Source: Tetrapyrgos nigripes (taxonomy: Eukaryota; Basidiomycota; Agaricomycetes; Agaricales; Campanellaceae). From it: DNA of 64,000 nt. Below, in pieces: positions 17,498 through 43,830 of the stretch (positions are counted from its first letter, which is position 1; each line of letters opens with the position of its first letter). The position numbers and the translations under genes were made by a program. The stretch is taken from the NCBI GenBank assembly GCA_013368315.1, contig JAACJM010000193.1, positions 95,489 through 159,488 of the forward strand, read 5' to 3'. The notes below the pieces were generated by a model. The model did no database searches. It saw only the letters and a list, made by a program, of their open reading frames with translations, and was not told the origin of the DNA.

Positions 17498-18784
17498 CAC
17501 TGGGTGCAAACACTTGTAAATCCTCTGCTTTACTGAGGTTTTACAAGAGTATTACACCAAGCCAATCAATATGTAAGACTCCTTGTCATACATTAGTATT
17601 ACAAGAGACAGAAAAAATTAGAACAACCTTGTATGACCATTGTAAGTCACAAAGAAATACCATGGACTTTCAGTGTGACTTGCTGTCACTGTATACCCTT
17701 GGTGGATATACTGTGGAATTACACAGGAATTTCAGAGTGACTTTTTGTCACAATATGTCATGTAGTAAGACACATAAGAAATACTGGAGTATTTCAGTGT
17801 GACAGATAATCACAGTATGACAAACAGTAAGGCAAGAGAGATTTACAAAGAACTTACAAGGAAGCAAAATCTGCAGGAAATTTACAAAGTGACAATCAAG
17901 TCACAGTAATACACTTGTAAGACTAGCTGTATTATGAAGGAATTACAAGAAAGATTTGCTACAAACACTGGTAAATCCTCAGCCTTACTGGAGTATTACA
18001 AGAGTATTATGGGGAACCAATCAATATGTAAGTTGGCTTGACTTACAAGTGTATTACAAAATAGACAAAAAATGAGGACTATTCTGAAAGACCATTGTAA
18101 GCTGCAAGGACATACCATGGACTTTGAGTGTGAGGCTTTGTCACAGTATAGCATTGAAGAGCATACAGTGGAATTACAAGGTGACTTTTTTGTCACAGTA
18201 TGTCTTCTTGTAAAACAGAACTGAAATACCAGGGTATTTCAGTGTGAGATAATGTCACAGTAAGACAATTTGTAAACCAAGGAAAATTTACAGAGGACTT
18301 ACCAGAAGGTAGAACTTGAAAGTCTTGGGTAAGACTGCTCATATTTACACAGAATTTACGGAGGGACAGCTGTGTCACAGTAATACCCTAGAAAGACTTG
18401 TGGTTTTACAAGGGAATTACAAGATGCAGGTTTTAAAAGTCTATCTCGTAAGTCTCTGGAAAAAACCTGCATGCTAAATGGAGAATATACAGTGTGACAG
18501 ACTGGTCACAGTAAGACACTTGTAAGTCACAAGACATTACAATGACTGTACGGAAAAGTGACTATTTTGTAAGTCATCATGTATATCCAATGGACTTACA
18601 AGAGACTTGTTGGATGGATTTGCAGTGCATGTCAATTAAGTAATACAGAAGGGCTTACTGAAAATTTACAGGATGTAATACAATGAATTCATTCAACCAG
18701 GTCAATTGAATGTCACTAAATATAAATAGACAGCTCAGGCTGGACTGTGTCTGCCTTGTCATCTTCGTCTGCTCAGTCTGTTAC
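17498..18784 (+). repeat. Subterminal arm of element A (left)
   Basis: About 1.29 kb with more than twenty TTACAAG/CTTGTAA-type motifs in both orientations and TGTGACA/TGTCACA pairs (for example TGACTTTTTGTCACA), spaced roughly every 20-40 bp. Such dense short subterminal motifs are typical transposase-binding regions of CACTA elements. Near-identical copies lie at 25,396-26,681 (inverted), 35,287-36,589 and 42,546-43,830 (inverted). Confidence 0.85.
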
Positions 18785-20821
18785 GTCTGCCTCGTCTGCC
18801 TCGTCTGCCTCGTCTGCCTCGTCTGCCTCGTCTGCCTCGTCTGCTCCGTCTGCCTCGTCTGCCTCGTCTGCCTCGTCTGCTTCGTCTGCCTCGTCTGCTC
18901 CGTCTGCTCCGTCTGCTCCGTCTGCTCCGTCTGCCTCGTCTGCCTCGTCTGCCTCGTCTGCCTCGTCTGCCTCGTCTGCCTCGTCTGCCTCGTCTGCCTC
19001 GTCTGCCTCGTCTGCCTCGTCTGCCTCGTCTGCCTCGTCTGCCTCGTCTGCCTCGTCTGCCTCGTCTGCCTCGTCTGCCTCGTCTGCCTCGTCTGCCTCG
19101 TCTGCCTCGTCTGCCTCGTCTGCCTCGTCTGCCTCGTCTGCCTCGTCTGCCTCGTCTGCCTCGTCTGCCTCGTCTGCCTCGTCTGCCTCGTCTGCCCTCG
19201 TCTGCCTCGTCTGCCCCGTCTGCCTCGTCTGCCCCGTCTGCCTCGTCTGCCCCGTCTGCCTCGTCTGCCCCGTCTGCCTCGTCTGCCCGTCTGCCCCGTC
19301 TGCCTCGTCTGCCTCGTCTGCCCCGTCTGCCTCCGTCTGCCTCGTCTGCCCCGTCTGCCCCGTCTGCCTCGTCTGCCTCGTCTGCTCCCCGTCTGCCTCG
19401 TCTGCCCCGTCTGCCTCGTGTGCCTCGTCTGCTCCGTCTGCCTCGTCTGCCTCGTCTGCTCCGTCTGTCTCGTCTGCCTCGTCTGCCCCGTCTGCCTCGT
19501 CTGCCTCGTCTGCTCCGTCTGTCTCGTCTGCCTCGTCTGCCCCGTCTGCCTCGTCTGCCCCGTCTGCCTCGTCTGCCCCGTCTGCCTCCGTCTGCCCCGT
19601 CTGCCTCGTCTGCCCCATCTGCCTCGTGTGCCTCGTCTGCTCCATCTGCCTCGTCTGCCTCGTCTGCTCCGTCTGCCTCGTCTGCCTCGTCTGCCTCGTC
19701 TGCCTCGTCTGCTCTGTCTGCCTCGTCTGCCTCGTCTGCTCCGTCTGTCTCGTCTGCCCGTCTGCCTCGTCTGCCCCGTCTGCCTCGTCTGCCTCGTCTG
19801 CTCCGTCTGCCTCGTCTGCCTCGTCTGCTCCGTCTGTCTCGTCTGCCTCGTCTGCCCCATCTGCCTCGTCTGCCCCGTCTGCCTCGTCTGCCCCGTCTGC
19901 CTCCGTCTGCCCCGTCTGCCTCGTCTGCCCCGTCTGCCTCCGTCTGCCCCGTCTGCCTCGTCTGCCTCGTCTGCCTCGTCTGCTCCGTCTGCCTCGTCTG
20001 CCCTGTCTGCCTCGTCTGCCTCGTCTGCTCCGTCTGCCTCGTCTGCCTCATCTGCTCTGTCTGCCTCGTGTGCCTCGTCTGCTCCGTCTGCCTCGTCTGC
20101 CTCGTCTGCGCTGTCTGTCTCGTCTGCCTCGTCTGCTCTGTCTGTCTCGTCTGCTCTGTCTGCCTCGTCTGCCTCGTCTGCCCCGTCTGCCTCGTCTGCC
20201 CCGTCTGCCTCGTCTGCCTCGTCTGCGCCGTCTGTCTCGTCTGCCTCGTCTGCTCCGTCTGTCTCGTCTGCCTCGTCTGCCCTGTCTGCCTCGTCTGCCT
20301 CGTCTGCCCCGTCTGCCTCGTCTGCCTCGTCTGCCCCGTCTGCCTCGTCTGCCTCGTCTGCCTTGTCTGCCTCGTCTGCTCCGTCTGCTCTCTGTCTGCC
20401 TCGTCTGCTCCGTCTGCCTCGTCTGCCCCGTCGTCTGCCTCGTCTGCCTCGTCTGCCCCGTCTGCCTTGTCTGCCTCGTCTGCCTCTGTCTGCCTCGTCT
20501 GCCTCGTCTGCCCCAGTCTGCCTCGTCTGCCTCGTCTGCCTCGTCTGCCCCATCTGCCTCGTCTGCCTCGTCTGCCCCGTCTGCCTCGTCTGCCTCGTCT
20601 GCCCCGTCTGCCTCGTCTGCCCCGTCTGCCTCGTCTGCCTCGTCTGCTCCGTCTGCTCCGTCTGCCTCGTCTGCTCTGTCTGCCTCGTCTGCCTCGTCTG
20701 CCTCGTCGCCTCGTCTGCTCCGTCTGCCTCTGTCTGCTCCTGTCTGGCTCATCTGCCCCGTCTGCCTTGTCTGCCCCGTCTGCCTTGTCTACCCCGTCTG
20801 CCTTGTCTGCCCCGTCTGCCC
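18785..20821. repeat. 9-bp minisatellite, unit GTCTGCCTC (element A left)
   Basis: About 225 tandem units GTCTGCNNC, mostly GTCTGCCTC with CCC, TCC, CTT and TCT variants. The unit is a multiple of three and has no stops, so all six frames stay open for up to 2 kb. The resulting Ser/Ala, Cys/Leu/Val, Arg/Leu/Pro, Asp/Glu/Ala, Gln/Thr/Arg and Gly/Arg polymers are not evidence of protein. Confidence 0.95.
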
Positions 20822-23800
20822 AGCCGTAGCTGTAACTGCTACACATAGTATACTGATAGTACTCTGCTGGGCACAATGCGTAGTTTGTAGAGGCTTATCT
20901 GTACCTATATTATGGTATGATACTATGCATAGTGAATCACTGTTCCACCCCATACCATGCATAGTATATCCCATTTTATTTTCGCATATCACGCATAGTA
21001 AGCCACTGTGCCAGCCCTATACCATGTGTAGTATTGCATACCATGCGTAGTAAGCCACTGTGCCCCTTAGGGGGCAGTAGGGCGGGTTTTTCTCAAGCCT
21101 CAAAATTTGATGGGAGGTGCAGGCCGTCGATAGGGCCCTGAATCTGCAAATGGAATAGGGGTAGTAGCTGTGGCTGGCTCAGAAAATGCAAAATAAATTC
21201 CTGGAGCCGGCAATGAAAAGTGATATAAGTATATAAGAGGATGTATTTTGGGTCACTGAATTCAAATATCCAATCAGATTCGCAATACCTGCAGTGGCTA
21301 TAGAGATATGGCCAAAATACTGTCCAAAATACAGCGAATAGCAGGATGGGTACTGGCCATTGCATCCAATCAGCTCTGATCATTATGGAAATTGGTAGGA
21401 TACTGCTTTTGGATTATATAAACTTGGGAATAACATTTATTTCATTATATAATCAATGTCTAGTGAGATATCCTCAATTTACTCTCAAAAAAGTGAAAAT
21501 TTGGGATGGCCATGGACACTACATGTTATAGCATCTAATATAGTTATGGATATGCTTACTAGGGTATTCTGTGTCATTGAATCAGAATATCCACTTGGAT
21601 AAGCTCTATATTCTGTGGTTCTGGTGATATGGAATACTTACTCCTAAATATAGGTACCTGTGGCACCCACAAATATGCAACTTATAAATTTGTTTGAGAG
21701 GGTGGATAAATGTCCATTAATACTTTCAATCAGAATATAAAGTCATATTCTTCATATCTTGAAGATACAAGACTCTATTTTCAATTTATTTCCCAAGAAT
21801 TGCCACAAAAGCGAAAAAAGTGAGATGGCCATGGAGAGGGCATGGTATGGCATCCAATACAGCTATGTATATGTCTATTGAAGTAGTCCGGGTCCTTGAA
21901 TCCAAATATCCACTTAGATTGGCTCTATAAGCTGTGGCTACTCTGCTATTGAAGACTTACTCCCAAGCATGGGTACCTGTGGCACCTGTAAATATGTATC
22001 TTAAAAAACTGTGGAGATAGGTGGATAACTGTTTATCAAAGCCCCAAACAACAATATGAGGTCATATGTTCCATATCCCCAAGATCCAAGACTCTATTCC
22101 CAATTTATTACTCAAAAAGCGAAAATAGTACCTTTTGGAACCATATACATGGGCATATCTCATTCCAGAGGTTACTGGAGGCACTCATACTATGTATTTC
22201 ATGTTTTAGTACCACTTAAAAGATGATCAGCCATCCAAAATATCTAGCAGATGTTCTAGGTACATGCACCAGGTTAAAGTCAAACTGAGTTGCAGATAAT
22301 GATACTTATAGGACTTAAGGCTATATCTGAACATGTATTTCAGTGAGAACTTCCAAACTGCCAGTAACACAAGAATTATGGCTTAGAATGATGGGAGGAT
22401 AGTCAGAATGCCAGTCTCAAAGCCAAAAGATAGGTATATGTGTCAATGAAGGTGAAAATTAAGGCTATCTTTGCTGTCTGGGGAATAAATTGAGAATAGA
22501 GTCTTAGAACTTAGGGATATAGGGGATATGACTTCATATTACTGTTTGGTACATCAATCAACACTTTTAAACCCACTCAACCTATTTTATAAAGTACATA
22601 TTTGCAGGTGCCACAGGTACCCACGTTTGGGGGTAAGTCTTGAATAGCAGAGTACCCATAGCCTATAGAGCCAATCCGAGTGGATATTAGGATTCCACAA
22701 CCAAATTTATCTTAGTAGGCATATCCATGATCATATTGGATGCCACACCATGCCCTGTGCATGGCCATTCCTCTTTTTTCACTTTTGTGGCAATTTTTGG
22801 GGAATAAATTGAAAATAGAGTCTTGTATTTTGAAGATATCAAAAACATGACTGTATATTATGATTAAGGGTATTAATGAACATTTATCCACCCTCTCAAA
22901 CAAATTTATAAGTTGCATATTTGTGGATGCCACAGGTACCTATATTTAGGGGTAAGTATTCCATATCACCAGAACCACAGAATATAGAGCTTATCCAAGT
23001 GGATATTCTGAGTCAGGGACACAAAATATCCTTGTAAGCATATCCATAATTATATTAGATGCTATAACATGCAGTGTGCATGGCCATCCCAAATTTTTCA
23101 CTTTTTTGAGAGTAAATTGAGGATATCTCACTAGACATTGATTATATAATAAAATAAATGTTATTCCCAAGTTTATAGAATCCAAAAGCAGTATCCTACC
23201 AATTTCCATAATGATCAGAGCTGATTGGATGCAATGACCAGTACCCATCCTGCTATTTTGCTGTATTTTGGAAAGTATTTTGGCCATACCTCTATACCCA
23301 CTGCAGTTATTGCAAATTTGATTGGATATTTGGATTCAGCGACCCAAAATACACCCTCTTATATACTTACATCACTGTATTTTGAAGATATCAAAAACAT
23401 GACTGTATATTATGATTAAGGGTATTAATGAACATTTATCCACCCTCTCAAACAAATTTATAAGTTGCATATTTGTGGATGCCACAGGTACCTATATTTA
23501 GGGGTAAGTATTCCATATCACCAGAACCACAGAATATAGAGCTTATCCAAGTGGATATTCTGAGTCAGGGACACAAAATATCCTTGTAAGCATATCCATA
23601 ATTATATTAGATGCTATAACATGCAGTGTGCATGGCCATCCCAAATTTTTCACTTTTTTGAGAGTAAATTGAGGATATCTCACTAGACATTGATTATATA
23701 ATAAAATAAATGTTATTCCCAAGTTTATAGAATCCAAAAGCAGTATCCTACCAATTTCCATAATGATCAGAGCTGATTGGATGCAATGACCAGTACCCAT

Positions 23801-24311
23801 CCTGCTATTTTGCTGTATTTTGGAAAGTATTTTGGCCATACCTCTATACCCACTGCAGTTATTGCAAATTTGATTGGATATTTGGATTCAGCGACCCAAA
23901 ATACACCCTCTTATATACTTACATCACTTTTCATTGCCGGCTCCAGGAATTTATTTTGCATTTTCTGAGCCAGCCACAGCTACTACCCCTATTCCATTTA
24001 CAGATTCTGGCCCCTACTGACCGCCTGCACCTCCTATCAAATTTTGAGGCGTGAGAAAAACCAGCCCTCCTGGCCCCTAAGGCCCTGCCTATCGCCACAT
24101 CAAATTACCAGCTGTGGGAAAAACCTGCCAAATTTACTTAAGGTATACCATGCGTGGTATAGTAGAATATTGTGCACACAATGCATAGTATGAAAATAGC
24201 CATACAATGCATCATATGCTCACCCAAAGTATACACAGAGAAAGGACTGTTGACTACGCATTGTGTTGTGTGAGTGCTGCCTGTATACTATGCATGGCAG
24301 TTACAACTACT
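20822..24311. other. AT-rich palindromic core of element A
   Basis: The core begins and ends with clusters of CATGCRTAGTA-type motifs (20,840-21,060; 24,140-24,300). Inside, 21,090-21,720 is repeated inverted at about 22,900-23,300 and again at about 23,470-24,060, so the core is itself a large imperfect palindrome. No coding sequence is supported: a 98-residue frame that occurs twice is simply carried by a tandem duplication. Confidence 0.7.
22824..23927. repeat. 552-bp tandem duplication
   Basis: Units 22,824-23,375 and 23,376-23,927 appear identical by eye, implying very recent duplication. The junction falls at ATCACTGTATTTTGAAG. Confidence 0.85.
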
Positions 24312-25395
24312 GGTGGTCTGCCTCGTCTGCCCCATCTGCCTCGTCTGCCTCATCTGCCTCATCTGCGTCGTCTGCCTTGTCTGCGTCGTCTGCGTCGTCT
24401 GCCTTGTCTGCGTCGTCTGTGTCGTCTGCCTCGTCTGCCTCGTCAGCATCGTCTGCTCCGTCTGCTCCATCTGCCTCGTCGAGACGGAGCAGACAGAGCA
24501 GACGAGGCAGACGGGGGAGACGGAGCAGACAAGGCAGACAGAGCAGACGGAGCAGACGAGGCAGACGGGGGAGATGGAGCAGACGAGGCAGATGGAGCAG
24601 ACGGAGCAGACGAGGCAGACGAGGCAGACAGAGCAGACAGAGCAGACAGAGCAGACGGGGCAGCTGGAGCAGACAAGGCAGACAAGGCAGACGGAGCAGA
24701 CAAGGCAGACAAGGCAGACGAGGCAGACAAAGCAGACGGAGCAGACAAGGCAGACAAGGCAGACAAGGCAGACGGAGCAGACAAGGCAGACAAGGCAGAC
24801 GGAGCAGACAAGGCAGACCAGGCAGACGGAGCAGACCAGGCAGACCAGGCAGACGGAGCAGACAAGGCAGACCAGGCAGACGGAGCAGACAAGGCAGACG
24901 AGGCAGACGGAGCAGACGAGGCAGACGAGGCAGACGGAGCAGACGAGGCAGACGAGGCAGACGGAGCAGACAGCGCAGACGAGGCAGACGAGGCAGACGG
25001 AGCAGACGAGGCAGACGAGGCAGACGGAGCAGACAAGGCAGACAAGGCAGACGGAGCAGACGAGGCAGACGGAGCAGACGAGGCAGACGGAGCAGACGAG
25101 GCAGACGAGGCAGACGGAGCAGACGAGGCAGACGAGGCAGACGGAGCAGACGAGGCAGACGAGGCAGACGAGGCAGACGAGGCAGACGAGGCAGACGAGG
25201 CAGACGAGGCAGACGAGGCAGACGAGGCAGACGAGGCAGACGAGGCAGACAAGGCAGACGGGGCAGACAAGGCAGACGGGGCAGACAAGGCAGACAAGGC
25301 AGACAAGGCAGACAAGGCAGACGGGGCAGACAAGGCAGACAAGGCAGACAAGGCAGACAAGGCAGACGGGGCAGACAAGGCAGACAAGGCAGACG
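24312..25395. repeat. 9-bp minisatellite, right arm of A, with orientation switch
   Basis: 24,312-24,480 reads GTCTGCCTC. At 24,480 (GCCTCGTC then GAGACGGAGCAGAC) it flips to GAGGCAGAC for about 100 units to 25,395. Confidence 0.93.
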
Positions 25396-26681
25396 TAACA
25401 GACTGAGCAGACGAAGATGACAAGGCAGACACAGTCCAGCCTGAGCTGTCTATTTATATTTAGTGACATTCAATTGACCTGGTTGAATGAATTCATTTTA
25501 TTACATCCTGTACATTTTCAGTAAGCCCTTCTGTATTACTTAATTGACATGCACTGCAAATCCATCCAACAAGTCTCTTGTAAGTCCATTGGATATACAT
25601 GATGACTTACAAAATAGTCACTTTTCAGTAAAGTCATTGTAATGTCTTCTGACTTACAAGTGTCTTACTGTGACCAGTCTGTCACACTGTATATTCTCCA
25701 TTTAGCATGCAGGTTTTTTCCAGAGACTTACGAGATAGACTTTTAAAACCTGCATCTTGTAATTCCCTTGTAAAACCACAAGTCTTTCTAGGGTATTACT
25801 GTGACACAGCTGTCCCTCCGTAAATTCTGTGTAAATATGAGCAGTCTTACCCAAGACTTTCAAGTTCTACCTTCTGGTAAGTCCTCTGTAAATTTTCCTT
25901 GGTTTACAAATTGTCTTACTGTGACATTATCTCACACTGAAATACCCTGGTATTTCAGTTCTGTTTTACAAGAAGACATACTGTGACAAAAAAGTCACCT
26001 TGTAATTCCACTGTATGCTCTTCAATGCTATACTGTGACAAAGCCTCACACTGAAAGTCCATGGTATGTCCTTGCAGCTTACAATGGTCTTTCAGAATAG
26101 TCCTCATTTTTTGTCTATTTTGTAATACACTTGTAAGTCAAGCCAACTTACATATTGATTGGTTCCCCATAATACTCTTGTAATACTCCAGTAAGGCTGA
26201 GGATTTACCAGTGTTTGTAGCAAATGTTTCTTGTAATTCCTTCATAATACAGCTAGTCTTACAAGTGTATTACTCTGACTTGATTGTCACTTTGTAAATT
26301 TCCTGCAGATTTTGCTTCCTTGTAAGTCCTTTGTAAATCTCTCTTGCCTTACTGTTTGTCATACTGTGATTATCTGTCACACTGAAATACTCCAGTATTT
26401 CCTATGTGTCTTACTACATGACATATTGTGACAAAAAGTCACCCTGAAATTCCTGTGTAATTCCACAGTATATCCACCAAGGGTATACAGTGACAGCAAG
26501 TCACACTGAAAGTCCATGGTATTTCTTTATGACTTACAATGGTCATACAAGGTTGTTCTAATTTTTTCTGTCTCTTGTAATACTAATGTATGACAAGGAG
26601 TCTTACATATTGATTGGCTTGGTGTAATACTCTTGTAAAACCTCAGTAAAGCAGAGGATTTACAAGTGTTTGTACCCAGTG
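25396..26681 (-). repeat. Subterminal arm of element A (right, inverted)
   Basis: Inverted near-identical copy of 17,498-18,784, ending in CCCAGTG at 26,681. Confidence 0.88.
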
Positions 26682-29600
26682 GGGTGTGTGCAGGTTGCGT
26701 CCAGGGTGCGCGTAGGTTGCATCCAGATTGCGCGCAGGTTGCGTCCAGGGTGCGTGCAGGTTGCGTCCAGAGTGTGCGCAGGTTGTGTCCAGAGTGCGCC
26801 CAGATTGCGCGCAGGTTGCGTCCAGGGTGCGCGCAGGTTGCGCCCAGAGTGCGCGCAGGTTGCGCCCAGATTGCGCGCAGGTTGCGTCCAGGGTGCGCGC
26901 AGGTTGCGTCCAGAGTGCACACAGGTTGCACCCAGAGTGCGCGCAGGTTGCGCCCAGAGTGCGCGCAGGTTGCGCCCAGAGTGCGTGCAGGTTGCGCCCA
27001 GAGTGCGCGCAGGTTGCGTCCAGAGTGTGCGCAGGTTGCGTCCAGAGTGCGCGCAGGTTGCGTCTAGAGTGCGGGCAGGTTGCGTCCAGGGTGCACGCAG
27101 GTTGCGTCCAGAGTGCATGCAGGTTGTGTCCAGGGTGCGCGCAGGTTGCGTCCAGGGTGTGCGCAGGTTGCGTCCAGAGTGCGCGCAGGTTGCGCCCAGA
27201 TTGCGCGCAGGTTGCGTCCAGGGTGCGCGCAGGTTGTGCCCAGAGTGCACGCAGGTTGCGCCCAGAGTGCGCGCAGGTTGCGTCCAGAGTGCGGGCAGGT
27301 TGCGTCCAGAGTGCGCGCAGGTTGCGTCCAGAGTGCGCGCAGGTTGCGTCCAGAGTGCGCGCAGGTTGCGCCCAGAGTGCGTGCAGGTTGCGTCCAGAGT
27401 GCGCGCAGGTTGCGTCCAGAGTGCGTGCAGGTTGCGTCCAGGGTGCGTGCAGGTTGCGTCCAGGGTGCGCGCAGGTTGCGTCCAGATTGCGCGCAGGTTG
27501 CGTCCAGGGTGCATGCAGGTTGCGTCCAGAGTGCGCGCAGGTTGTGTCCAGAGTGCGCCCAGATTGCGCGCAGGTTGCGCCCAGAGTGCGCGCAGGTTGC
27601 GCCCAGAGTGCGGGCAGGTTGCGTCCAGAGTGCGGGCAGGTTGCGTCCAGGGTGCACGCAGGTTGCGTCCAGAGTGCATGCAGGTTGCGTCCAGGGTGTG
27701 CGCAGGTTGCGTCCAGGGTGTGCGCAGGTTGCGTCCAGGGTGTGCGCAGGTTGCGTCCAGAGTGCGCGCAGGTTGCGCCCAGATTGCGCGCAGGTTGCGT
27801 CCAGGGTGCGCGCAGGTTGCGCCCAGAGTGCACGCAGGTTGCGCCCAGAGTGCGCGCAGGTTGCGTCCAGAGTGCGGGCAGGTTGCGTCCAGGGCGCACG
27901 CAGGTTGCGTCCAGAGTGCGCGCAGGTTGCGTCCAGAGTGCGCGCAGGTTGCGTCCAGAGTGCGCGCAGGTTGCGCCCAGATTGCGCGCAGGTTGCGTCC
28001 AGAGTGCGCGCAGGTTGCGTCCAGGGTGCGCCCAGAGTGCGTGCAGGTTGCGCCCAGGGTGCACGCAGGTTGCGTCCAGGGTGCGCTGCGTGCAGGTTGC
28101 GTCCAGAGTGTGTGCAGGTTGCGTCCAGAGTGCGCACAGGTTGCGTCCAGAGTGCGTGCAGGTTGCGTCCAGAGTGCGCACAGGTTGCGTCCAGAGTGCG
28201 CGCAGGTTGCGTCCAGAGTGCACGCAGTTTGCGCGCAGGTTGCATCCAGAGTGCATGCAGGTTGCGTCCAGGGTGTGCGCAGGTTGCGTCCAGGGTGTGC
28301 GCAGGTTGCGTCCAGAGTGCGCGCAGGTTGCGCCCAGATTGCGCGCAGGTTGCGTCCAGAGTGCGCGCAGGTTGCGCCCAGAGTGCGCGCAGGTTTCGTC
28401 CAGAGTGCGTGCAGGTTGCGTCCAGAGTGCACGCAGGTTGCGTCCAGAGTGTGCGCAGGTTGCGTCCAGAGTGCGCGCAGGTTGCGCCCAGAGTGTGCGC
28501 AGGTTGCGTCCAGAGTGCGTGCAGGTTGCGTCCAGATTGCGCGCAGGTTGTGCCCAGATTGCGCGCAGGTTGCGTCCAGAGTGCGCGCAGGTTGCGCCCA
28601 GAGTGCGCGCAGGTTGCGTCCAGAGTGCGTGCAGGTTGCGTCCAGGGTGTGTGCAGGTTGCGTCCAGGGTGCGCGCAGGTTGCGTCCAGATTGCGCGCAG
28701 GTTGCATCCAGGGTGCGTGCAGGTTGCGTCCAGAGTGCGCGCAGGTTGTGTCCAGAATGTGCCCAGATTGCGCGCAGGTTGCGTCCAGGGTGCGCGCAGG
28801 TTGCGCCCAGAGTGCACGCAGGTTGTGCCCAGATTGCGCGCAGGTTGCGTCCAGGGTGCGCGCAGGTTGCGTCCAGAGTGCACACAGGTTGCACCCAGAG
28901 TGCGCGCAGGTTGCGCCCAGAGTGCGTGCAGGTTGCGCCCAGAGTGCGCGCAGGTTGCGCCCAGAGTGCGCGCAGGTTGCGCCCAGAGTGCGCGCAGGTT
29001 GCGCCCAGAGTGCGCGCAGGTTGCGTCCAGAGTGCGGGCAGGTTGCGTCCAGAGTGCGGGCAGGTTGCGTCCAGGGTGCACGCAGGTTGCGTCCAGAGTG
29101 CATGCAGGTTGCGTCCAGGGTGTGCGCAGGTTGCGTCCAGAGTGCACACAGGTTGGGCCCAGATTGCGCGCAGGTTGCGTCCAGGGTGCGCGCAGGTTGC
29201 GCCCAGAGTGCACGCAGGTTGCGCCCAGAGTGCGCGCAGGTTGCGTCCAGAGTGCGTGCAGGTTGCGTCCAGGGTGCGTGCAGGTTGCGTCCAGAGTGCG
29301 TGCAGGTTGCGTCCAGGGTGCGTGCAGGTTGCGTCCAGGGTGTGCGCAGGTTGCGTCCAGAGTGCGCGCAGGTTGCGTCCAGAGTGCGCGCAGGTTGCGT
29401 CCAGAGTGTGCGCAGGTTGCGTCCAGGGTGCGCCCAGAGTGCGTGCAGGTTGCGCCCAGGGTGCGCGCAGGTTGCGCCCAGAGTGCGCGCAGGTTGCGCC
29501 CAGAGTGCGCACAGGTTGCGCCCAGAGTGCGCGCAGGTTGTGTCCAGGGTGCGCGCAGGTTGCGCCCAGAGTGCACGCAGGTTGCGCCCAGAGTGCGCGC

Positions 29601-30118
29601 AGGTTGCGTCCAGAGTGCGTGCAGGTTGCGTTCAGAGTGCGTGCAGGTTGCGTCCAGAGTGCGTGCAGGTTGCGTCCAGAGTGCGCGCAGGTTGCGTCCA
29701 GAGTGCACACAGGTTGCGTCCAGAGTGCGCGCAGGTTGCGTCCAGCGTGCGCGCAGGTTGCGTCCAGAGTGCGCGCAGGTTGCGTCCAGAGTGCGCGCAG
29801 GTTGCGTCCAGAGTGCGCGCAGGTTGCGTCCAGAGTGCACGCAGGTTGCGCCCAGAGTGCGCGCAGGTTGCGTCCAGAGTGCACGCAGGTTGCGTCCAGA
29901 GTGCGGGCAGGTTGCGTCCAGGGTGCGGGCAGGTTGCGTCCAGAGTGCGCGCAGGTTGCGTCCAGAGTGCGCGCAGGTTGCGTCCAGAGTGCGCGCAGGT
30001 TGCACCCAGATTGCGCACAGGTTGCGTCCAGAGTGTGCGCAACCTGCACGCACTCTGGGCGCACCCTGGACGCAACCTGCGCGCACTCTGGACGCAAACT
30101 GCGTGCACTCTGGACGCC
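26682..30118. repeat. 22-bp minisatellite (element C)
   Basis: About 150 copies of a 22-bp unit with core GCAGGTTGCGTCCAGAGTG and frequent GTCC/GCCC and AGAG/AGGG variants. Near 30,040 the array flips orientation (GTGTGCGCA then ACCTGCACGC), and the last 80 bp are inverted. Long open frames in every phase follow from the absence of stops in the unit and do not indicate a protein. Confidence 0.93.
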
Positions 30119-30550
30119 GCCACCTGCGCACTTTTGTCACACTGAAATACTTCTGTATTTCTTGGCTGTATTACCTAATGTATTACTGTGACACCATGTC
30201 ACTCTGAAATTTCCCTGTAATCCAACTTGTCTTACAGCAGTCTTACAGCATTGCTCCCAAAATTTCTTCTCTCTGTAATACTTCTGTAATCCAAGGCAGA
30301 ATACTTGTTGAATGGCTTGGTGTAAGTTTGCTGTAATCCCTATGTAGGGCACTGGATATACAGGGATTTGGCCTCTGAAATCTCCCTGTAATACAACTTG
30401 TCTTACAGCAGTCTTACAGCATTGATCTGGAAAATTCTTCTCTCTGTAATACCTCTGTAATACAAGGTGGATTACTTATTGAATGACTTGTTGTAAGGTC
30501 ACTGTAATACCTCTGTATGGCAGATGATTTACAGGGATTTGCCTCCAGTG
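30119..30550 (-). repeat. Subterminal arm of element C
   Basis: TGTAATAC/TTACAG-rich. It contains a direct duplication with a period of about 174 bp: CTCTGAAATTTCCCTGTAAT near 30,201 recurs near 30,374, with matched CTTGTCTTACAGCAGTC blocks. It is diverged from the A/B arm but shares the terminal 40-bp pattern. Confidence 0.8.
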
Positions 30551-31014
30551 GCATCTTCGATACACACAGAGAAGAGTCCGAGTTCGGAGAAGCAGCGTTG
30601 TTGGAATTCTATCAGGATGGGTTACCACCCAAACTCCGAGAAGCAGTTGGAAGAACGTATCCAAAGTGGGACGACTTCGAAGAGTATAAGGAAAGAGCTG
30701 TGGAGCTTCATTTAGAATGGTTGAAGGAACGGGAAAGACAAGGACGCTGGAAAACTACTTCAACATCGAAGAGTAGTCCAGGTCCGGGGAGAACAGTAGC
30801 AAGCGTCAATGCGCTTATGAATATGGGACCAGGTGCTAACTTGTCTTCCAATCCACTGCCTAAGCTGACACCTGATGAAAGGGACCGACTCCGAAAATTA
30901 GGAGCATGCTTCACGTGTAGACAAACCGGACACATGAGTAACGAATGTCCGACATACCCAAGGACGTCATCTCAAAACACTTCCCAAACCTTTCCCTCCT
31001 CTCGTTCGGTTTGA
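30551..31014 (+). pseudogene. gag: Ty3/gypsy gag, C-terminal part with zinc knuckle
   Basis: The reading FGEAALLEFYQDGLP to EEYKERAVELHLEW resembles the end of the gag capsid domain. A CCHC zinc knuckle (CFTCRQTGHMSNEC, CX2CX4HX4C) follows for RNA binding. The N-terminal capsid half is absent because element C borders it. An in-frame TGA (31,012-31,014) separates gag from the pol frame, which continues in the same phase. In a live element this could be a programmed stop, but given the other lesions it is as likely a nonsense change. Confidence 0.8.
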
Positions 31015-34000: not shown

Positions 34001-35011
34001 AATGCAATTCACATCACAGTCGACCGTTCAACAAAAACAATTGTCATTTCTCCATGCAGAAAAGATATCGATAGTGACGGAACAATTGACCTATTGTTCG
34101 ACAACACTTGGCAAAGATACAGCCTCTGGGACAAAATGATATCTGACCGCGGACCTCAATTCGCAAGCCAAGTAATGAAAGGAATCTACACTAAGTTAGG
34201 TATCACTTCGGCACTCAGTACAGCTTATCATCTGCAAACAGATGGCGAGACAGAAAGGTTCAATCAAGAACTTGAACAATACCTTCGAACCTTGTGTAAC
34301 TACCGCCAGGACGATTGGGTTAAATACCTACCTTACGCTGAATTCTGTCACAATACCTGAATTCATTCAGCAACCAGGAAATCGCCGTTCGAACTCCTCC
34401 ATGGATATCTACCCTGGCTCTTCCCTTCCATCAACCTGACTTCACACATGCCAAAGGTTGAAGAACGCCTCCAGAACTTAGATACTCTGCGAGAGGAACT
34501 AAAAGCAAGTCTGGCGACAGCAGCAGAACTGATGAAAGAACAAAACAAAGACCACACGAAGGAAGGAATAAAGTTTAAAGTTGGGGACAAAGTACTGCTA
34601 GACGGAAAGAATTTGAAGACAACGAGACTGAAAGCTAAGTTGGCAAATCATCGTCACGGACCGTTTGAAATCACTGACGTTATCAGTGAAGTCAACTACC
34701 GACTCAAATTACCGAATAGCTGGCGCATTCACCCAGTATTCCACGCTTCACTCCTATCGCAGTACAAAGAAACCGAAGCCCACAGAGTGAATTATCTGGG
34801 AGAAGCGGCGGAGTTACTTCCCGAAGACAACGAATACGATGTGGAAGCAATTTTAGATTCAAAACCAACGAGAAACCGTCAGGGAGTACAGTACCTTGTC
34901 AAATGGTTGGACTATGCTGATTCAGAAAATTCATGGGAACCAGCGTCAGGATTGACGAAGGTGAAGGAGATGATCGAGACCTTCCATCAACAGCACCCAG
35001 ATGCATATTGA
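31015..35011 (+). pseudogene. pol: Ty3/gypsy pol polyprotein with chromodomain, broken
   Basis: Protease: ALIDSSAEG where DSGA is expected (Gly to Ser), plus NIILGTDWL. Reverse transcriptase: FFVKKKDGKLRPVQDYRALN and, at the catalytic box, HMDDILIF (Tyr replaced by His). TAA at 32,752. RNase H: VEVDASDYAMGG and the tether AQKLSRRQAR; a deletion near 33,308 removes the TDH-type segment and shifts frame. Integrase: HHDS..AGH...CATCQ zinc finger, then a frameshift near 33,975, ISDRGPQF, DGETERFNQELEQYLR; TGA at 34,358. The C-terminus is a chromodomain (EYDVEAILDSK, YLVKWLDY, SWEP), which in chromoviruses directs integration to modified histones. Function would be reverse transcription and integration, but at least five lesions make it inactive. 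Confidence 0.92.
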
Positions 35012-35286
35012 CCCAAGAATCTGATATGCCCCGGAACAACGGTGCGTTCACTAGGAATCGCCATGGAAGACATCTGGCGAAGTACCCGTGTGCTTCAAGC
35101 GAAAGCACAACTCCAAGGAGAAACACTGTTGCGAACCATTGGTATTCTTTGCCCTCCTTCACACCCCACTCGGCAATCGAACTCAGACTTTTGTCATCAT
35201 TCATCAATCGCATTCCCTCATTAACGGCGTTTACTGTCAAACCCGTCTCCAATGATAACATGACCGATCAGTTAACATTTACACCA

Positions 35287-36589
35287 CACTGGGTGCAAAC
35301 ACTTGTAAATCCTCTGCTTTACTGAGGTTTTACAAGAGTATTACACCAAGCCAATCAATATGTAAGACTCCTTGTCATACATTAGTATTACAAGAGACAG
35401 AAAAAATTAGAACAACCTTGTATGACCATTGTAAGTCACAAAGAAATACCATGGACTTTCAGTGTGACTTGCTGTCACTGTATACCCTTGGTGGATATAC
35501 TGTGGAATTACACAGGAATTCAGAGTGACTTTTTGTCACAATATGTCATGTAGTAAGACACATAAGAAATACTGGAGTATTTCAGTGTGACAGATAATCA
35601 CAGTATGACAAACAGTAAGGCAAGAGAGATTTACAAAGAACTTACAAGGAAGCAAAATCTGCAGGAAATTTACAAAGTGACAATCAAGTCACAGTAATAC
35701 ACTTGTAAGACTAGCTGTATTATGAAGGAATTACAAGAAAGATTTGCTACAAACACTGGTAAATCCTCAGCCTTACTGGAGTATTACAAGAGTATTATGG
35801 GGAACCAATCAATATGTAAGTTGGCTTGACTTACAAGTGTATTACAAAATAGACAAAAAATGAGGACTATTCTGAAAGACCATTGTAAGCTGCAAGGACA
35901 TACCATGGACTTTCAGTGTGAGGCTTTGTCACAGTATAGCATTGAAGAGCATACAGTGGAATTACAAGGTGACTTTTTTGTCACAGTATGTCTTCTTGTA
36001 AAACAGAACTGAAATACCAGGGTATTTCAGTGTGAGATAATGTCACAGTAAGACAATTTGTAAACCAAGTAAAATTTACAAAGGACTTACCAGAAGGTAG
36101 AACTTGAAAGTCTTGGGTAAGACTGCTCATATTTACACAGAATTTACAGAGGGACAGCTGTGTCACAGTAATAACCTAGAAAGAATTGTGGTTTTACAAG
36201 GGAATTACAAGATGCAGGTTTAAAAAGTCTATCCCGTAAGTCTCTGGAAAAAACCTGCATGCTAAATGGAGAATATACAGTGTGACAGACTGGTCACAGT
36301 AAGACACTTGTAAGTCACAAGACATTACAATGACTTTACTGAAAAGTGACTATTTTGTAAGTCATCATGTATATCCAATGGACTTACAAGAGACTTGTTG
36401 GATGGATTTGCAGTGCATGTCAATTAAGTAATACAGAAGGGCTTACTGAAAATTTACAGGATGTAATACAATGAATTCATTCAACCAGGTCAATTAAATG
36501 TCACTAAATATAAATAGACAGCTCAGGCTGGACTGTGTCTGCCTTGTCATCTTCGTCTGCTCAGTCTGCACCATCTGCCTCATGGGCTC
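35287..36589 (+). repeat. Subterminal arm of element B (left)
   Basis: Near-identical to 17,498-18,784; small differences include one T fewer in AGGAATTTCAGAG (17,730 against 35,517). Confidence 0.88.
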
Positions 36590-39385
36590 CGTCTGCTCCG
36601 TCTGCCTTGTCTGCCCCGTCTGCCTTGTCTGCCTTGTCTGCCCTGTCTGCCTTGTCTGCCTTGTCTGCCCTGTCTGCCTTGTCTGCTCTGTCTGCTTCGT
36701 CTTCTTCATCTGCCTCGTCCGCCCCGTCTGCCTCGTATGCCTCGTCTGCCCCGTCTGCCTCGTCTGCACTGTCTGCCTCATGGGCACCGTCTGCTCCGTC
36801 TGCCTTGTCAGCCCCGTCTGCCTTGTCTGCCTTGTCTGCCATGTCTGCCTTGTCTGCTCTGTCTGCTTCGTCTTCTTCATCTGCCTCGTCCGCCCCGTCT
36901 GCCTCGTCCGCCCTGTCTGCCTCGTCTGCCCCGTCTGCCTCGTCCGCCCCGTCTGCCTCGTCCGCCCCGTCTGCCTCGTCTGCCCCGTCTGCCTCGTCCG
37001 CCCCGTCTGCCTCGTCCGCCCCGTCTGCCTCGTCCGCCCCGTCTGCCTCGTCCGCCCCGTCTGCCTCGTCTGCCTCGTCTGCCTCGTCTGCCCCGTCTGC
37101 CTCGTCTGCCTCGGCTGCCCCGTCTGCCTCATCTGCCCCGTCTGCCCTGTCTGCTCCGTCTGCCTCGTCTGCCTCGTCTGCCTCGTCTGCTCCGTCTGCC
37201 TCGTCTGCTCCGTCTGCCTCGTCTGCTCCGTCTGCCTCGTCTGCTCCGTCTGCCTCGTCTGCTTCGTCTGCCTCCTCTGCTTCGTCTGCCTCGTCTGCTC
37301 CGTCTGCCTCGTCTGCTCCGTCTGCCTCGTCTGCTCCGTCTGCCTCGTCTGCTTCGTCTGCCTCCTCTGCTTCGTCTGCCTCGTCTGCTCTGTCTGCTCT
37401 GTCTGCCTCGTCTGCTCTGTCTGCTCTGTCTGCTCTGTCTGCCTTGTCTGCCTTGTCTGCCCTGTCTGCCTCGTCTGCCTCGTCTGCTCAGTCTGCCTTG
37501 TCTGCTCCGTCTGCCTCGTCTGCCTTGTCTGCTCCATCTGCCTCTTCTGCCTCGTCTGCTCCGTCTGCCTCGTCTGCCTCGTTTGCCTTGTCTGCTCCGT
37601 CCGCCTCGTCTGCTCCCTCTGCCTTGTCTGCCTTGTCTGCCTTGTCTGCCTTGTCTGCCTCGTCTGCCTCGTCTGCCTCGTCTGCCTCGTCTGCCCCGTC
37701 TGCCTCGTCTGCCCCGTCTGCCTCGTCTGCCCCGTCTGCCTCGTCTGCCCCGTCTGCCTCGTCTGCCCCATCTGCCTTGTCTGCCTTGTCTGCCCCGTCT
37801 GCCCCGTCTGCCTCGTCTGCCCCGTCTTCCTCGTCTGCCTCGTCTGCCCCGTCTGCCTCGTCTGCCTCGTCTGCCCCGTCTGCCTCGTCTGCCTCGTCTG
37901 CTCCGTCTGCCTCGTCTGCCTCGTTTGCCTTGTCTGCTCCGTCTGCCTCGTCTGCTCCCTCTGCCTTGTCTGCCTTGTCTGCCTTGTCTGCCTTGTCTGC
38001 CTTGTCTGCCTTGTCTGCCTTGTCTGCTTCGTCTGCCTCGTCTGCCTCGTCTGCCTTGTCTGCTTCGTCTGCCTCGTCTGCTCTGTCTGCTCTGTCTGCC
38101 TTGTCTGCCTTGTCTGCCTTGTCTGCCTTGTCTGCCTCGTCTGCTTCGTCTGCCTTGTCTGCTCTGTCTGCTCTGTCTGCCTTGTCTGCCTTGTCTGCCC
38201 TGTCTGCCTCGTCTGCCTCGTCTGCTCCGTCTGCCTCGTCTGCTCCGTCTGCCTCGTCTGCCCCGTCTGCCTCGTCTGCCTCGTCTGCCCCGTCTGCCTC
38301 GTCTGCCTCGTCTGCTCCGTCTGCCTCGTCTGCCTCGTTTGCCTTGTCTGCTCCGTCTGCCTCGTCTGCTCCCTCTGCCTTGTCTGCCTTGTCTGCCTTG
38401 TCTGCCTTGTCTGCCTTGTCTGCCTTGTCTGCCTTGTCTGCTTCGTCTGCCTCGTCTGCTCTGTCTGCTCTGTCTGCCTTGTCTGCCTTGTCTGCCTTGT
38501 CTGCCTTGTCTGCCTTGTCTGCTTCGTCTGCCTCGTCTGCTCTGTCTGCTCTGTCTGCCTTGTCTGCCTTGTCTGCCCTGTCTGCCTCGTCTGCCTCGTC
38601 TGCTCCGTCTGCCTCGTCTGCTCCGTCTGCCTCGTCTGCTCCGTCTGCCTCGTCTGCCTTGTCTGCTCCATCTGCCTCGTCTGCCTCGTCTGCTCCGTCT
38701 GCCTCGTCTGCCTCGTTTGCCTTGTCTGCTCCGTGTGCCTCGTCTGCTCCCTCTGCCTCGTCTGCCTTGTCTGCCTTGTCTGCCTTGTCTGCCTTGTCTG
38801 CCTTGTCTGCTCCCTCTGCCTCGTCTGCCTCGTCTGCCTCATCTGCCTCGTCTGCTCCCTCTGCCTTGTCTGCCTTGTCTGCCTTGTCTGCCTTGTCTGC
38901 CTTGTCTGCCTTGTCTGCCTTGTCTGCCTTGTCTGCCTTGTCTGCCTTGTCTGCCTTGTCTGCCCCGTCTTCCTCGTCTGCCCCGTCTTCCTCGTCTGCC
39001 TCGTCTGCCCCGTCTGCCTCGTCTGCCTCGTCTGCCCCGTCTGCCTCGTCTGCCTCGTCTGCCTTGTCTGCCCCGTCTGCCTCGTCTGCCCCGTCTTCCT
39101 CGTCTGCCTCGTCTGCCCCGTCTGCCTCGTCTGCCCCGTCTGCCTCGTCTGCCTCGTCTGCCCCGTCTGCCTCGTCTGCCTCGTCTGCTCCGTCTGCCTC
39201 GTCTGCCTCGTCTGCTCCGTCTGCCTCGTCTGCCTCGTTTGCCTTGTCTGCTCCGTCTGCCTCGTCTGCTCCCTCTGCCTCGTCTGCCTCGTCTGCCTCG
39301 TCTGCTTCGTCTGCCTCGTCTGCTCTGTCTGCCTTGTCTGCCTTGTCTGCCTTGTCTGCCTTGTCTGCCTTGTCTGCCTCATCTG
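36590..39385. repeat. 9-bp minisatellite (element B left)
   Basis: About 310 units GTCTGCNNC. Higher-order repeats are visible: the rare variant block CCTCGTTTGCCTTGTCTGC occurs five times (about 37,577; 37,918; 38,333; 38,708; 39,233), spaced 340-525 bp. Confidence 0.93.
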
Positions 39386-40274
39386 GCTCACACCAGTAGT
39401 TGTAACTGCCATGCTTAGTATACAGGCAGTACTCACACAACACAATGCGTAGTCAACAGTACTTTCTCTGTGTATACTTTGGGTGAGCATATGATGCATT
39501 GTATGGCTATTTTCATACTATGCATTGTGTGCACAATATTCTACTATACCACGCATGGTATACCTTAAGTAAATTTGGCAGGTTTTTCCGACAGCTGGTA
39601 ATTTGATGTGGCGGTAGGCAGGGCCTTAGGGGCCAGTAGGGCGGGTTTTTCTCACGTCTCAAAATTTGATAGGAGGTGCAGGCGGTCAGTAGGGGCCAGA
39701 ATCTGCAAATGGAATAGGGGTAGTAGCTGTGGCTGGCTCAGAAATGCAAAATAAATTCCTGGAGCCGGCAATGAAAAGTGATGTAAGTACATAAGAGGGT
39801 GTATTTTGGGTCGCTGAATCCAAATATCCCATTAAATTTGCAATAACCACAGTGGGTATAGAGATATGGCCAAAATACTGTCCAAAATACAGCAAAATAG
39901 CAGGATGGGTACTGGTCATTGCATCCAATCAGCTCTGATCATTATGCAAATTGGTAGGATACTCCTTTTGGATTCTATAAACTTGGGAATAATATTTATC
40001 CTATTATATAATCAATGTCTAGTGAGATATCCTCAATTTACTCTGAAAGAGGTGAAAATTTTGGGATGGCCATGGACACTACATATTATAGCATCTAATA
40101 TAATTATGGATATGCTTACAAAGATATTTTGTGTCCCTGAATCAGAATATCCACTTGGATAAGCTCTATATTCTGTGGTTCTGGTGATATGGAATACTTA
40201 TCCCTAAATATAGGTACCTGTGGCATCCACAAATATGCAACTTATAAATTTGTTTGAGAGGGTGGATAAATGTT
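39386..40274. other. Core of element B
   Basis: 889 bp matching one half of the core of A: the CATAGTA-type motif cluster 39,400-39,560, then sequence related to 21,090-21,720. It joins the right array abruptly within GTGGATAAATGTTCGAGGC, so the second half of the palindrome was lost here. Confidence 0.75.
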
Positions 40275-42545
40275 CGAGGCAGACAAGGCAGACAAGGCAG
40301 ACGGAGCAGACGGGGCAGACGAGGCAGACGGGACAGACGAGGCAGACGAGGCAGACGGGGCAGACGGGGCAGACGGGGCAGACGAGGCAGACGAGGCAGA
40401 CGGAGCAGATGAGGCAGACGAGGCAGACGGAGCAGATGAGGCAGACGGAGCAGACGAGGCAGACGAGGCAGACAGAGCAGACGAGGCAGACGGAGCAGAC
40501 GAGGCAGACGAGTCAGACGAGGCAGACAGAGCAGACCAGGCAGACGGAGCAGACCAGGCAGACCAGGCAGACCAGGCAGACGGGGCAGACCAGGCAGACG
40601 GGGCAGACCAGGCAGACCAGGCAGACGGAGCAGACCAGGCAGACCAGGCAGACCAGGCAGACGGGGCAGACCAGGCAGACCAGGCAGACAGAGCAGACCA
40701 GGCAGACGGGGCAGACCAGGCAGACCAGGCAGACCAGGCAGACAGGGCAGAGGAGGCAGATGGAGCAGACAAGGCAGACAAGGCAGACGGGGCAGACAAG
40801 GCAGACAAGGCAGACGGAGCAGACAAGGCAGACAAGGCAGACAAGGCAGACAAGGCAGATGAGGCAGACGGAGCAGACAAGGCAGACGAGGCAGACGAGG
40901 CAGACAGAGCAGACGAGGCAGACGAGGCAGACAGAGCAGACGAGGCAGACGAGGCAGACGGGGCAGACGAGGCAGACGAGGCAGACGGGGCAGACGAGGC
41001 AGACGAGGAAGACGGGGCAGACGAGGCAGACGGGGCAGACGGGGCAGACGAGGCAGACAAGGCAGACGGGGCAGACAAGGCAGACGGGGCAGACGAGGCA
41101 GACGGGGCAGACGAGGCAGACGAGGAAGACAGGGCAGACGAGGCAGACGAGGAAGACAGGGCAGACGAGGCAGACGAGGAAGACAGGGCAGACGAGGCAG
41201 ACGAGGAAGACGGGGCAGACGAGGCAGACGAGGAAGACGGGGCAGACAAGGCAGACGAGGAAGACGGGGCAGACGAGGCAGACGGGGCAGACGGGGCAGA
41301 CGAGGCAGACGAGGCAGACGAGGCAGACAGAGCAGACGGGGCAGACGAGGCAGACGGGGCAGACGGGGCAGACGGGGCAGACGAGGCAGACGAGGCAGAC
41401 GGGGCAGACGGGGCAGACAGGGCAGACGAGGCAGACGGAGCAGACGAGGCAGACGGAGCAGACGAGGCAGACGGAGAAGACGAGGCAGACGAGGCAGACA
41501 GAGCAGACGAGGCAGACGAGGCAGACGAGGCAGACGGGGCAGATGGGGCAGACGAGGCAGACGAGGCAGACGGGGCAGACGAGGCAGACGAGGAAGACGG
41601 GGCAGACGAGGCAGATGAGGAAGACGGGGCAGACGAGGCAGACGGGGCAGACGGGGCAGACGAGGCAGACGAGGCAGACGAGGCAGACAGAGCAGACGGG
41701 GCAGACGAGGCAGACGGGGCAGACGGGGCAGACGGGGCAGACGAGGCAGACGGGGCAGACAGGGCAGACGAGGCAGACGGGGCAGACGGGGCAGACGAGG
41801 CAGACGGGGCAGACAGGGCAGACGAGGCAGACGGAGCAGACGAGGCAGACGGAGCAGACGAGGCAGACGGAGAAGACGAGGCAGACGAGGCAGACAGAGC
41901 AGACGAGGCAGACGAGGCAGACGAGGCAGACGGGGCAGATGGGGCAGACGAGGCAGACGAGGCAGACGGGGCAGACGAGGCAGACGAGGAAGACGGGGCA
42001 GACGAGGCAGACGAGGAAGACGGGGCAGACGAGGCAGACGAGGCAGACGGGGCAGACGAGGCAGACGAGGCAGACGAGGCAGACGGAGCAGACGGGGCAG
42101 ACGAGGCAGACAGGGCAGACGGGGCAGACGGGGCAGACGAGGCAGACGGGGCAGACAGGGCAGACGAGGCAGACGGGGCAGATGGGGCAGACGAGGCAGA
42201 CGGGGCAGACAGGGCAGACGAGGCAGACGGAGCAGACGAAGCAGATGGAGCAGACGAGGCAGACGGAGCAGACGAGGCAGATGAGGCAGACGGAGCAGAC
42301 AAGGCAGACAAGGCAGACAAGGCAGACAAGGCAGACAAGGCAGACAAGGCAGACAAGGCAGACAAGGCAGACAAGGCAGACGGGGCAGACAAGGCAGACA
42401 AGGCAGACAAGGCAGACAAGGCAGACGGGGCACACAAGGCAGACAAGGCAGACAAGGCAGACAAGGCAGACGGGGCAGACAAGGCAGACAAGGCAGACAA
42501 GGCAGACAAGGCAGACGGGGCCGACAAGGCAGACAAGGCAGACGT
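40275..42545. repeat. 9-bp minisatellite (element B right, inverted)
   Basis: About 250 units of GAGGCAGAC and variants, including a GAGGAAGAC variant. A block of about 44 units seems duplicated (GGGGCAGATGGGGCAGAC at about 41,535 and 41,931). Confidence 0.93.
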
Positions 42546-43830
42546 AACAGACTGAGCAGACGAAGATGACAAGGCAGACACAGTCCAGCCTGAGCTGTCT
42601 ATTTATATTTAGTGACATTTAATTGACCTGGTTGAATGAATTCATTGTATTACATCCTGTAAATTTTCAGTAAGCCCTTCTGTATTACTTAATTGACATG
42701 CACTGCAAATCCATCCAACAAGTCTCTTGTAAGTCCATTGGATATACATGATGACTTACAAAATAGTCACTTTTCAGTAAAGTCATTGTAATGTCTTGTG
42801 ACTTACAAGTGTCTTACTGTGACCAGTCTGTCACACTGTATATACTCCATTTAGCATGCAGGTTTTTTCCAGAGACTTACGAGATAGACTTTTTAAACCT
42901 GCATCTTGTAATTCCCTTGTAAAACCACAATTCTTTCTAGGTTATTACTGTGACACAGCTGTCCCTCTGTAAATTCTGTGTAAATATGAGCAGTCTTACC
43001 CAAGACTTTCAAGTTCTACCTTCTGGTAAGTCCTCTGTAAATTTTACTTGGTTTACAAATTGTCTTACTGTGACATTATCTCACACTGAAATACCCTGGT
43101 ATTTCAGTTCTGTTTTACAAGAAGACATACTGTGACAAAAAAGTCACCTTGTAATTCCACTGTATGCTCTTCAATGCTATACTGTGACAAAGCCTCACAC
43201 TGAAAGTCCATGGTATGTCCTTGCAGCTTACAATGGTCTTTCAGAATAGTCCTCATTTTTTGTCTATTTTGTAATACACTTGTAAGTCAAGCCAACTTAC
43301 ATATTGATTGGTTCCCCATAATACTCTTGTAATACTCCAGTAAGGCTGAGGATTTACCAGTGTTTGTAGCAAATCTTTCTTGTAATTCCTTCATAATACA
43401 GCTAGTCTTACAAGTGTATTACTGTGACTTGATTGTCACTTTGTAAATTTCCTGCAGATTTTGCTTCCTTGTAAGTTCTTTGTAAATCTCTCTTGCCTTA
43501 CTGTTTGTCATACTGTGATTATCTGTCACACTGAAATACTCCAGTATTTCTTATGTGTCTTACTACATGACATATTGTGACAAAAAGTCACTCTGAAATT
43601 CCTGTGTAATTCCACAGTATATCCACCAAGGGTATACAGTGACAGCAAGTCACACTGAAACTCCATGGTATTTCTTTGTGACTTACAATGGTCATACAAG
43701 GTTGTTCTAATTTTTTCTGTCTCTTGTAATACTAATGTATGACAAGGAGTCTTACATATTGATTGGCTTGGTGTAATACTCTTGTAAAACCTCAGTAAAG
43801 CAGAGGATTTACAAGTGTTCACACCCAGTG
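42546..43830 (-). repeat. Subterminal arm of element B (right, inverted)
   Basis: Inverted near-identical copy of the left arm. Confidence 0.88.

Follow-up and report, generated by a model that had tools for sequence, protein, structure and literature searches.

Foldback elements with satellite arms in the fungus Tetrapyrgos nigripes, probably non-autonomous transposons of the CACTA/EnSpm type

The foldback architecture is best known in Drosophila, where FB is a foldback-type element and where, as far as the partial accounts available go, FB, Galileo and Tetris share long inverted arms that form most of the element, tandem repeats in variable number and copies that often lack a transposase. 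According to excerpts of the original reports, the arms of Tetris contain repeats of ~220 bp (PMC4079207), and some Galileo arms contain repeats of ~210 bp (PMC3573991). CACTA elements of basidiomycetes are described, again in excerpts, for Cryptococcus neoformans, whose CNIRT6 ends in CACTG, carries 24-bp inverted repeats, makes 3-bp target duplications and was observed to move (PMC12810828), and for Puccinia, whose EnSpm elements have CAC..GTG ends and 3-bp duplications (PMC12730594). Here we describe two elements, A and B, in a stretch of 64,000 nucleotides of Tetrapyrgos nigripes DNA (contig JAACJM010000193.1; C188:95489-159488 in the searched assembly; hereafter, the window), in which the foldback architecture appears on a CACTA-like element of a fungus. 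A and B are probably non-autonomous foldback transposons of the CACTA/EnSpm type; their mirror-image arms could fold into a hairpin, and they seem to encode no protein.

The CACTG ends and 3-bp duplications are shared with CNIRT6, likewise from a basidiomycete and active, which differs in having 24-bp inverted repeats and a transposase gene of its own; the excerpts of that report do not mention satellite arms (PMC12810828). The Puccinia elements also agree in CAC..GTG ends and 3-bp duplications, whereas they encode a transposase and some of them a TET/JBP dioxygenase too, satellite arms being unmentioned in the available portion of the text (PMC12730594). In contrast with the Drosophila foldbacks, the unit is here of 9 bp, the arrays reach several kb and join directly in 26 of 33 elements, and the duplication is of 3 bp; partial accounts give duplications of 8-10 bp for Tetris and assign Galileo to the P superfamily. 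The first-pass annotation, which was made from the letters alone, knew of no fungal element with minisatellite arms, and among the literature entries listed, surveyed as listings and openings of abstracts, no fungal foldback with tandem-repeat arms was seen, although the plan does have a Drosophila precedent, as seen in parts of those reports (PMC4079207, PMC3573991). The family looks like a new build of a known transposon kind. It ties mobile elements directly to the birth of satellites, since most copies read bear an inverted array pair.

Ends, target duplications and an empty site

The searched assembly comprised 98.5 Mb in 587 contigs. The terminal 25-mer, counted genome-wide at up to 2 mismatches, occurred 549 times (273 forward and 276 reverse) on many contigs, versus 0 and 0 for the reversed 25-mer used as control, which implies a few hundred copies; these CACTGGGTG ends are CACT[A/G]-type termini as in CACTA/EnSpm. 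The genome search with the arm that the first-pass annotation had proposed, in which the best 40 of 454 candidates were scored, gave 45 matches, 40 of them near full-length at 98-100% identity and 5 partial. For closer study, 33 complete elements (28 fetched whole, 3 assembled from adjoining stretches, and A and B) were chosen from pairs of perfect or near-perfect ends, with perfect 25-mers at both ends in all but A and B; loci read in part (L045-L052) or as arms only (L001-L010) were set aside.

Consistent CACTG borders with a perfect 3-bp target duplication, proposed beforehand as the test of the family, were found in 31 of these 33 elements, a set in which perfect-ended copies are over-sampled. 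When flanks were randomly re-paired (5000 trials each), a mean of 2.1 and a maximum of 9 matched, versus the 31 observed, and a 4-bp flank match was seen in none of the 33. The duplications are 76% A+T versus 56% in the flanks. The CCA/CCA duplication claimed for B is perfect, and a search with both B flanks joined by one CCA (best 40 of 168 candidates scored) listed 41 matches, of which 38 cross the junction, the best at 96% over 300/300 bases; of the other three, two are B's own separate flanks and one covers the left flank only. Because the joined-flank matches span the junction, B must have been inserted there, into a site whose empty form is precise, and the uninterrupted site is present in copies of the host Gypsy-type retroelement. 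A and B are members of a large, well-preserved transposon family. Their limits and CACTGG ends were confirmed as annotated, and the layout is as follows (window coordinates):

17498-26681: element A, 9184 bp, CACTGGGTG-type ends with right end CACTGGGTACAAAC; flanks CTA/GGG, no target duplication
17498-18746, + strand: A, left arm, motif-dense
18749-20820, + strand: A, 9-bp satellite GTCTGCCTC
20821-24315: element nested in the + satellite of A, ends CAGCCGTAGCTGTAACTGC / CACCAGTAGTTGTAACTGC (CA..TG), 7-bp duplication GTCTGCC, internal inverted repeat, KDZ-like termini
24316-24480, + strand: A, satellite resumed, to the centre; junction GTCGAGAC
24482-25414, - strand: A, satellite
25433-26681, - strand: A, right arm, inverted copy of the left arm
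26690-30550: remnant of a second related element type adjoining A, 22-bp satellite GCAGGTTGCGTCCAGAGTGCGC, right arm at ~30118-30550 ending GCCTCCAGTG
30551-35286, + strand: polyprotein of a Gypsy-type long terminal repeat (LTR) retroelement (RVT_1, Integrase_H2C2) in several broken frames; host of the B insertion
35287-43830: element B, 8544 bp; target duplication CCA/CCA, empty sites found
35287-36534, + strand: B, left arm, 1248 bp
36537-39389, + strand: B, 9-bp satellite
39391-40274: B, truncated half of an A-type nested element; end CACCAGTAGTTGTAACTGCC present, other end not found
40275-42579, - strand: B, 9-bp satellite
42582-43830, - strand: B, right arm, 99.4% identical to the left arm

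Arms and satellite arrays

The arm measures ~1248 bp from its CACTGGGT end to the first GTCTGCCTC array unit, and not the 1.29 kb first estimated, while the motif density ascribed to it stood up against shuffled sequences: the commonest arm 8-mer occurs 7 times, compared with a mean maximum of 2.9 and a highest value of 5 in 300 dinucleotide shuffles. TTACAAG occurs 14 times (shuffle mean 0.43) and GTCACAGTA 6 times (0.04), both having been selected post hoc after inspection of the arm. Such repeated subterminal motifs are those of CACTA/EnSpm. The arm also contains a diverged duplication, positions 10-362 matching 464-807 at ~75%.

The near identity noted for the four window arms holds at 98.4-99.5% pairwise. 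Full-length arms were 55 of 66, and in the 24 elements with two of them the arms differ by a mean of 0.93% within an element versus 1.65% between elements, a value as low as 0.93% being reached in 0 of 10,000 shuffled arm pairings. This fits partial exchange between arms, both within and between elements. Recent amplification, as was proposed, is a term to be used with care: arms of different elements differ by 1.65% on average, and the two arms of an element are more alike than under chance pairing, so that exchange may keep them together. We also observed that a TATA-like CTAAATATAAATAG (or CTGAATATAAATAG) directly precedes the satellite in 49 of the 55 full-length arms (window 36504-36517, for example); such a motif at the arm edge could launch transcripts into the arrays. 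L026 has 4.7 kb of extra DNA with a Harbinger-like transposase frame (DDE_Tnp_4, L026:4064-5445), which was rejected as a gene of the family, being situated in an insert inside the arm: the arm match stops at arm position 955 and restarts at 953, an overlap of 3 bp.

The plan of the family is a 1248-bp motif-dense arm, a GTCTGCCTC array, an inverted array and an inverted arm, and it is shared by elements as small as 768 bp and as large as 15.6 kb (21 of 33 are below 5.5 kb). The opposite orientation reported for the two minisatellites is borne out by the array coordinates of A and B. With 2 of 9 mismatches tolerated, 9-bp units account for 33% of A and 57% of B, compared with 1005 of 36000 bases in the window outside the elements, and 41% of all sequence in the 33 elements (202,849 bases) is 9-bp satellite. 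Parsing with one mismatch tolerated gave 10,589 units, the commonest being GTCTGC followed by CTC, CTT, TCC or CCC. Long inverted arms with tandem repeats thus form most of the element, as in foldbacks, whereas in place of a middle domain between the arms the arrays join head to head, with 25 bases or fewer between them in 26 of 33 elements; a middle domain is not known to be a strict requirement of the class. The junction GGATAGAC or its complement GTCTATCC is repeated in L020, L021, L033, L037, C144 and C238, and most others differ.

Satellite length ranges from nearly none to several kb, and ends and duplications stay intact. Insertion probably does not require the satellite, since L030 (768 bp), which consists of pieces of both arms with hardly any satellite, nonetheless has a TCA/TCA duplication. 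When the unit order of left and right arrays was compared, the longest shared run beat all cross-element comparisons in 7 of 31 elements; since such agreement is absent in the other 24, the two arrays of an element evolve largely independently.

The core of A and B

A palindromic core had been described as part of the shared plan. This was not sustained: the core of A is a separate element lying off the axis, that of B has one end, and 25 of the 33 elements show no core match (8 do). The core of A (20821-24315) starts with CAGCCGTAGCTGTAACTGC, ends with the complement of CACCAGTAGTTGTAACTGC and is flanked by two GTCTGCC copies, and the + array is found on both its sides, the centre of A being at ~24481. 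A nested element in L032 has CTGCCCC on both sides, an exact 7-bp duplication, and another, in the - array of C238, has a duplication of 5 of 7 letters, counted as inexact; CA..TG ends with a 7-bp duplication were thus found in the three copies with both flanks readable, exactly in A and L032 and at 5/7 in C238. Termini of this type occur in A, B, L022, L032, C238 and the partly read L046, in varying orientations and array positions. The terminus CAGCTGTAGCTGTAA is exact in L022, L032, C238 and L046, has one difference in A, and also terminates two KDZ copies, with satellite next to it in C31 and, in C42, a gag-like frame (so labelled by reading) that recurs at window 55749-56504.

Judged by its termini and duplication length, the core is probably an insertion of KDZ type nested in A and not part of the family plan, and the 0.89-kb core of B, with one such end, would be a one-ended piece of an element like that in A. 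Among described elements, Kyakuja has CA..TG ends and 7-bp duplications, as the nested element of A does (PMC12730594, in excerpt). The latter differs in its long inverted repeats and in having no long open frame, while the Kyakuja elements of the portion available are without inverted repeats, and the 3-bp host family is not KDZ. No open frame of at least 180 aa, and hence no KDZ transposase, lies wholly inside the core of A.

KDZ-type elements were seen repeatedly within 9-bp satellites (window 20821-24315, L022, L032, L041/L042, L046 and L051), in differing phase and orientation, as if the satellites were a preferred or tolerated target. The 9-bp phase lets nested insertions leave a readable duplication length, making the arrays a natural trap for other transposons.

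Transposases, rival explanations and related elements

Ends reading CACTGG[A/C/T] with equal spacing were also found, 119 + 130 genome-wide versus 0 for the reversed control. From the listed positions of about 100 of the 549 and 249 ends, 69 end pairs were paired by hand through adjacency, one of which, in C28, is seemingly not one element. The genome contains at least 117 matches to Transposase_21, at least 163 to Plavaka and at least 173 to KDZ (best 150 of 345 KDZ candidates scored), and the Plavaka and KDZ figures that follow refer to the matches listed. By gene-family content, the KDZ, CxC2 and Plavaka genes and a STAND/NB-ARC gene with TPR frames in the window suggest a basidiomycete. 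Transposase_21 lies within 2 of the 69 end pairs (C96:187604 and C34:24887) versus 0.5 expected by chance, KDZ within 3 (C31, C155 and C37) versus 0.7, and Plavaka within none versus 0.7. These positions are not decisive. The end pairs around the two Transposase_21 matches span C96:175439-199366 and C34:17881-29856. The latter, whose ends belong to the CACTGG[A/C/T] group and lie 12 kb apart, is the strongest candidate for an autonomous relative.

The CACTA/EnSpm assignment made in the first-pass annotation is the best fit, unproven as it is, because CACTG ends, 3-bp duplications and subterminal motifs match those of non-autonomous fungal CACTA/EnSpm elements. We infer a transposase, encoded elsewhere in the genome, whose binding sites would be the CACTGGG ends together with the repeated subterminal motifs of the 1.25-kb arms and which would excise the element and reinsert it at a 3-bp staggered cut, as the ends, duplications and empty site suggest. 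The 9-bp satellite behind each arm would be cargo, with slippage and unequal exchange as the probable source of its observed length variation; within an element, the two inverted arms may occasionally exchange sequence and so stay alike, in line with the statistical signal; and the satellite would itself have taken in insertions of a KDZ-type transposon, mistaken for a core. Several points weigh against this reading. Of the two elements described here, A lacks a target duplication (CTA/GGG), and the same is true of L031 (TAA/AGT); intact copies are over-represented, the 33 elements being drawn from (nearly) perfect end pairs; for no more than 20 of 48 arms is the partner in the same element the closest arm or equal to the closest; and no transposase was tied to the family, position within end pairs deciding nothing by itself.

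A further proposal, which we regard as doubtful, is that transposition and repair of this CACTA-type element themselves lengthen the 9-bp arrays, giving a self-lengthening hairpin that seeds inverted satellites across the genome and offers landing pads to KDZ elements; if so, the 22-bp-satellite relative would show satellite growth to be a property of the transposon group and not an accident of one unit.

That a Plavaka-type transposase, with duplications of 2-3 bp, moves the family seems unlikely. Plavaka is abundant here, and excerpts of the report on PlavakaB give it duplications of 2 or 3 bp, but the same source gives CATCA..TGATG as its ends and TGT..ACA as those of PlavakaA (PMC12730594), and the listed Plavaka matches all fall outside the end pairs.

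KDZ was favoured at first as the resident transposase, with the KDZ-bearing C31 and C155 as full-length parents and A and B as internal deletions. C155 (15.6 kb, TTA/TTA, arms 97% and 96%) and C31 (right half only read, arm 97.7%) have CxC2 and KDZ gene parts, the satellite edge of C31 resembles the core edge of A, and by eye KDZ matches lie inward of arm edges in C226, C243, C143 and C348. This was overturned by comparison with copies elsewhere: the C31-type element recurs in C42 with the same CAGCTGTAGCTG terminus, followed by a gag-like frame instead of satellite, and in C82 the match of a relative (79%) of the C155 KDZ region extends as far as the satellite edge, beyond which C82 has sequence other than satellite. 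Moreover, KDZ duplications are reported, in the parts of the sources available, as 7-8 bp (4-8 in Cryptococcus KDZ2/3) and not 3 (PMC12730594, PMC12810828), while the host family has 3 bp in 31 of 33 elements. On these comparisons and the reported duplication length, the KDZ copies in C31 and C155 look nested, and the KDZ explanation is very improbable; the KDZ segment of C155 has no clear 7-bp duplication and is bounded by arrays of opposite orientation.

An ordinary dispersed or subtelomeric satellite with chance borders, or an assembly artefact, might be suggested by A, which lacks a duplication and adjoins the satellite of another element, and by the long near-identical arrays, a known assembly hazard; it is hardly tenable in view of 31 duplications in 33 elements, the empty sites and the ends across many contigs, and wrongly joined halves would not retain matching duplications. 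Finally, coding of repeat proteins by the satellite deserves practically no credence: open frames of ~250 to 1000 aa do run through the arrays on both strands, but several are open simultaneously, and they are automatic, because the unit GTCTGCCTC is stop-free in all six frames, so we rejected them as coding evidence and expect gene callers to report false repeat proteins here.

The interval 17498-43830, presented initially as A plus B, does contain both, and its middle (26682-35286) is a 22-bp-satellite remnant and the Gypsy-type polyprotein. The surviving end of the remnant (26690-30550) reads CACTGGAGGCAAATC; its satellite runs for 149 units forward and then 3 in reverse, the orientation changing at ~30041, and its right arm resembles parts of the A/B arm at 66-78%. 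As no left arm of it was seen and A directly abuts the remnant, their contact reflects either a rearrangement or a join made in assembly. L035 is inserted in a 22-bp satellite array. The 30 CACTGG[A/C/T] ends with letters listed are of the types CACTGGAAG, CACTGGAGG and CACTGGATG; several of these pairs are 569 bp apart (C41:234688-235256, C60:302130-302698 and C82:225785-226353, for example), probably a miniature element family, and others 2-17 kb. Another miniature element, of 279 bp with CACTGGGTGC ends and a CTA/CTA duplication, lies in the KDZ gene region of C155 (L044:2484-2762).

Elsewhere in the window, a STAND/NB-ARC NTPase frame followed by frames with TPR repeats was observed at 4159-6685, and PIF1-like helicase frames (PF05970) at 15043-17408 stop ~90 bp before A and are perhaps the end of a Helitron.

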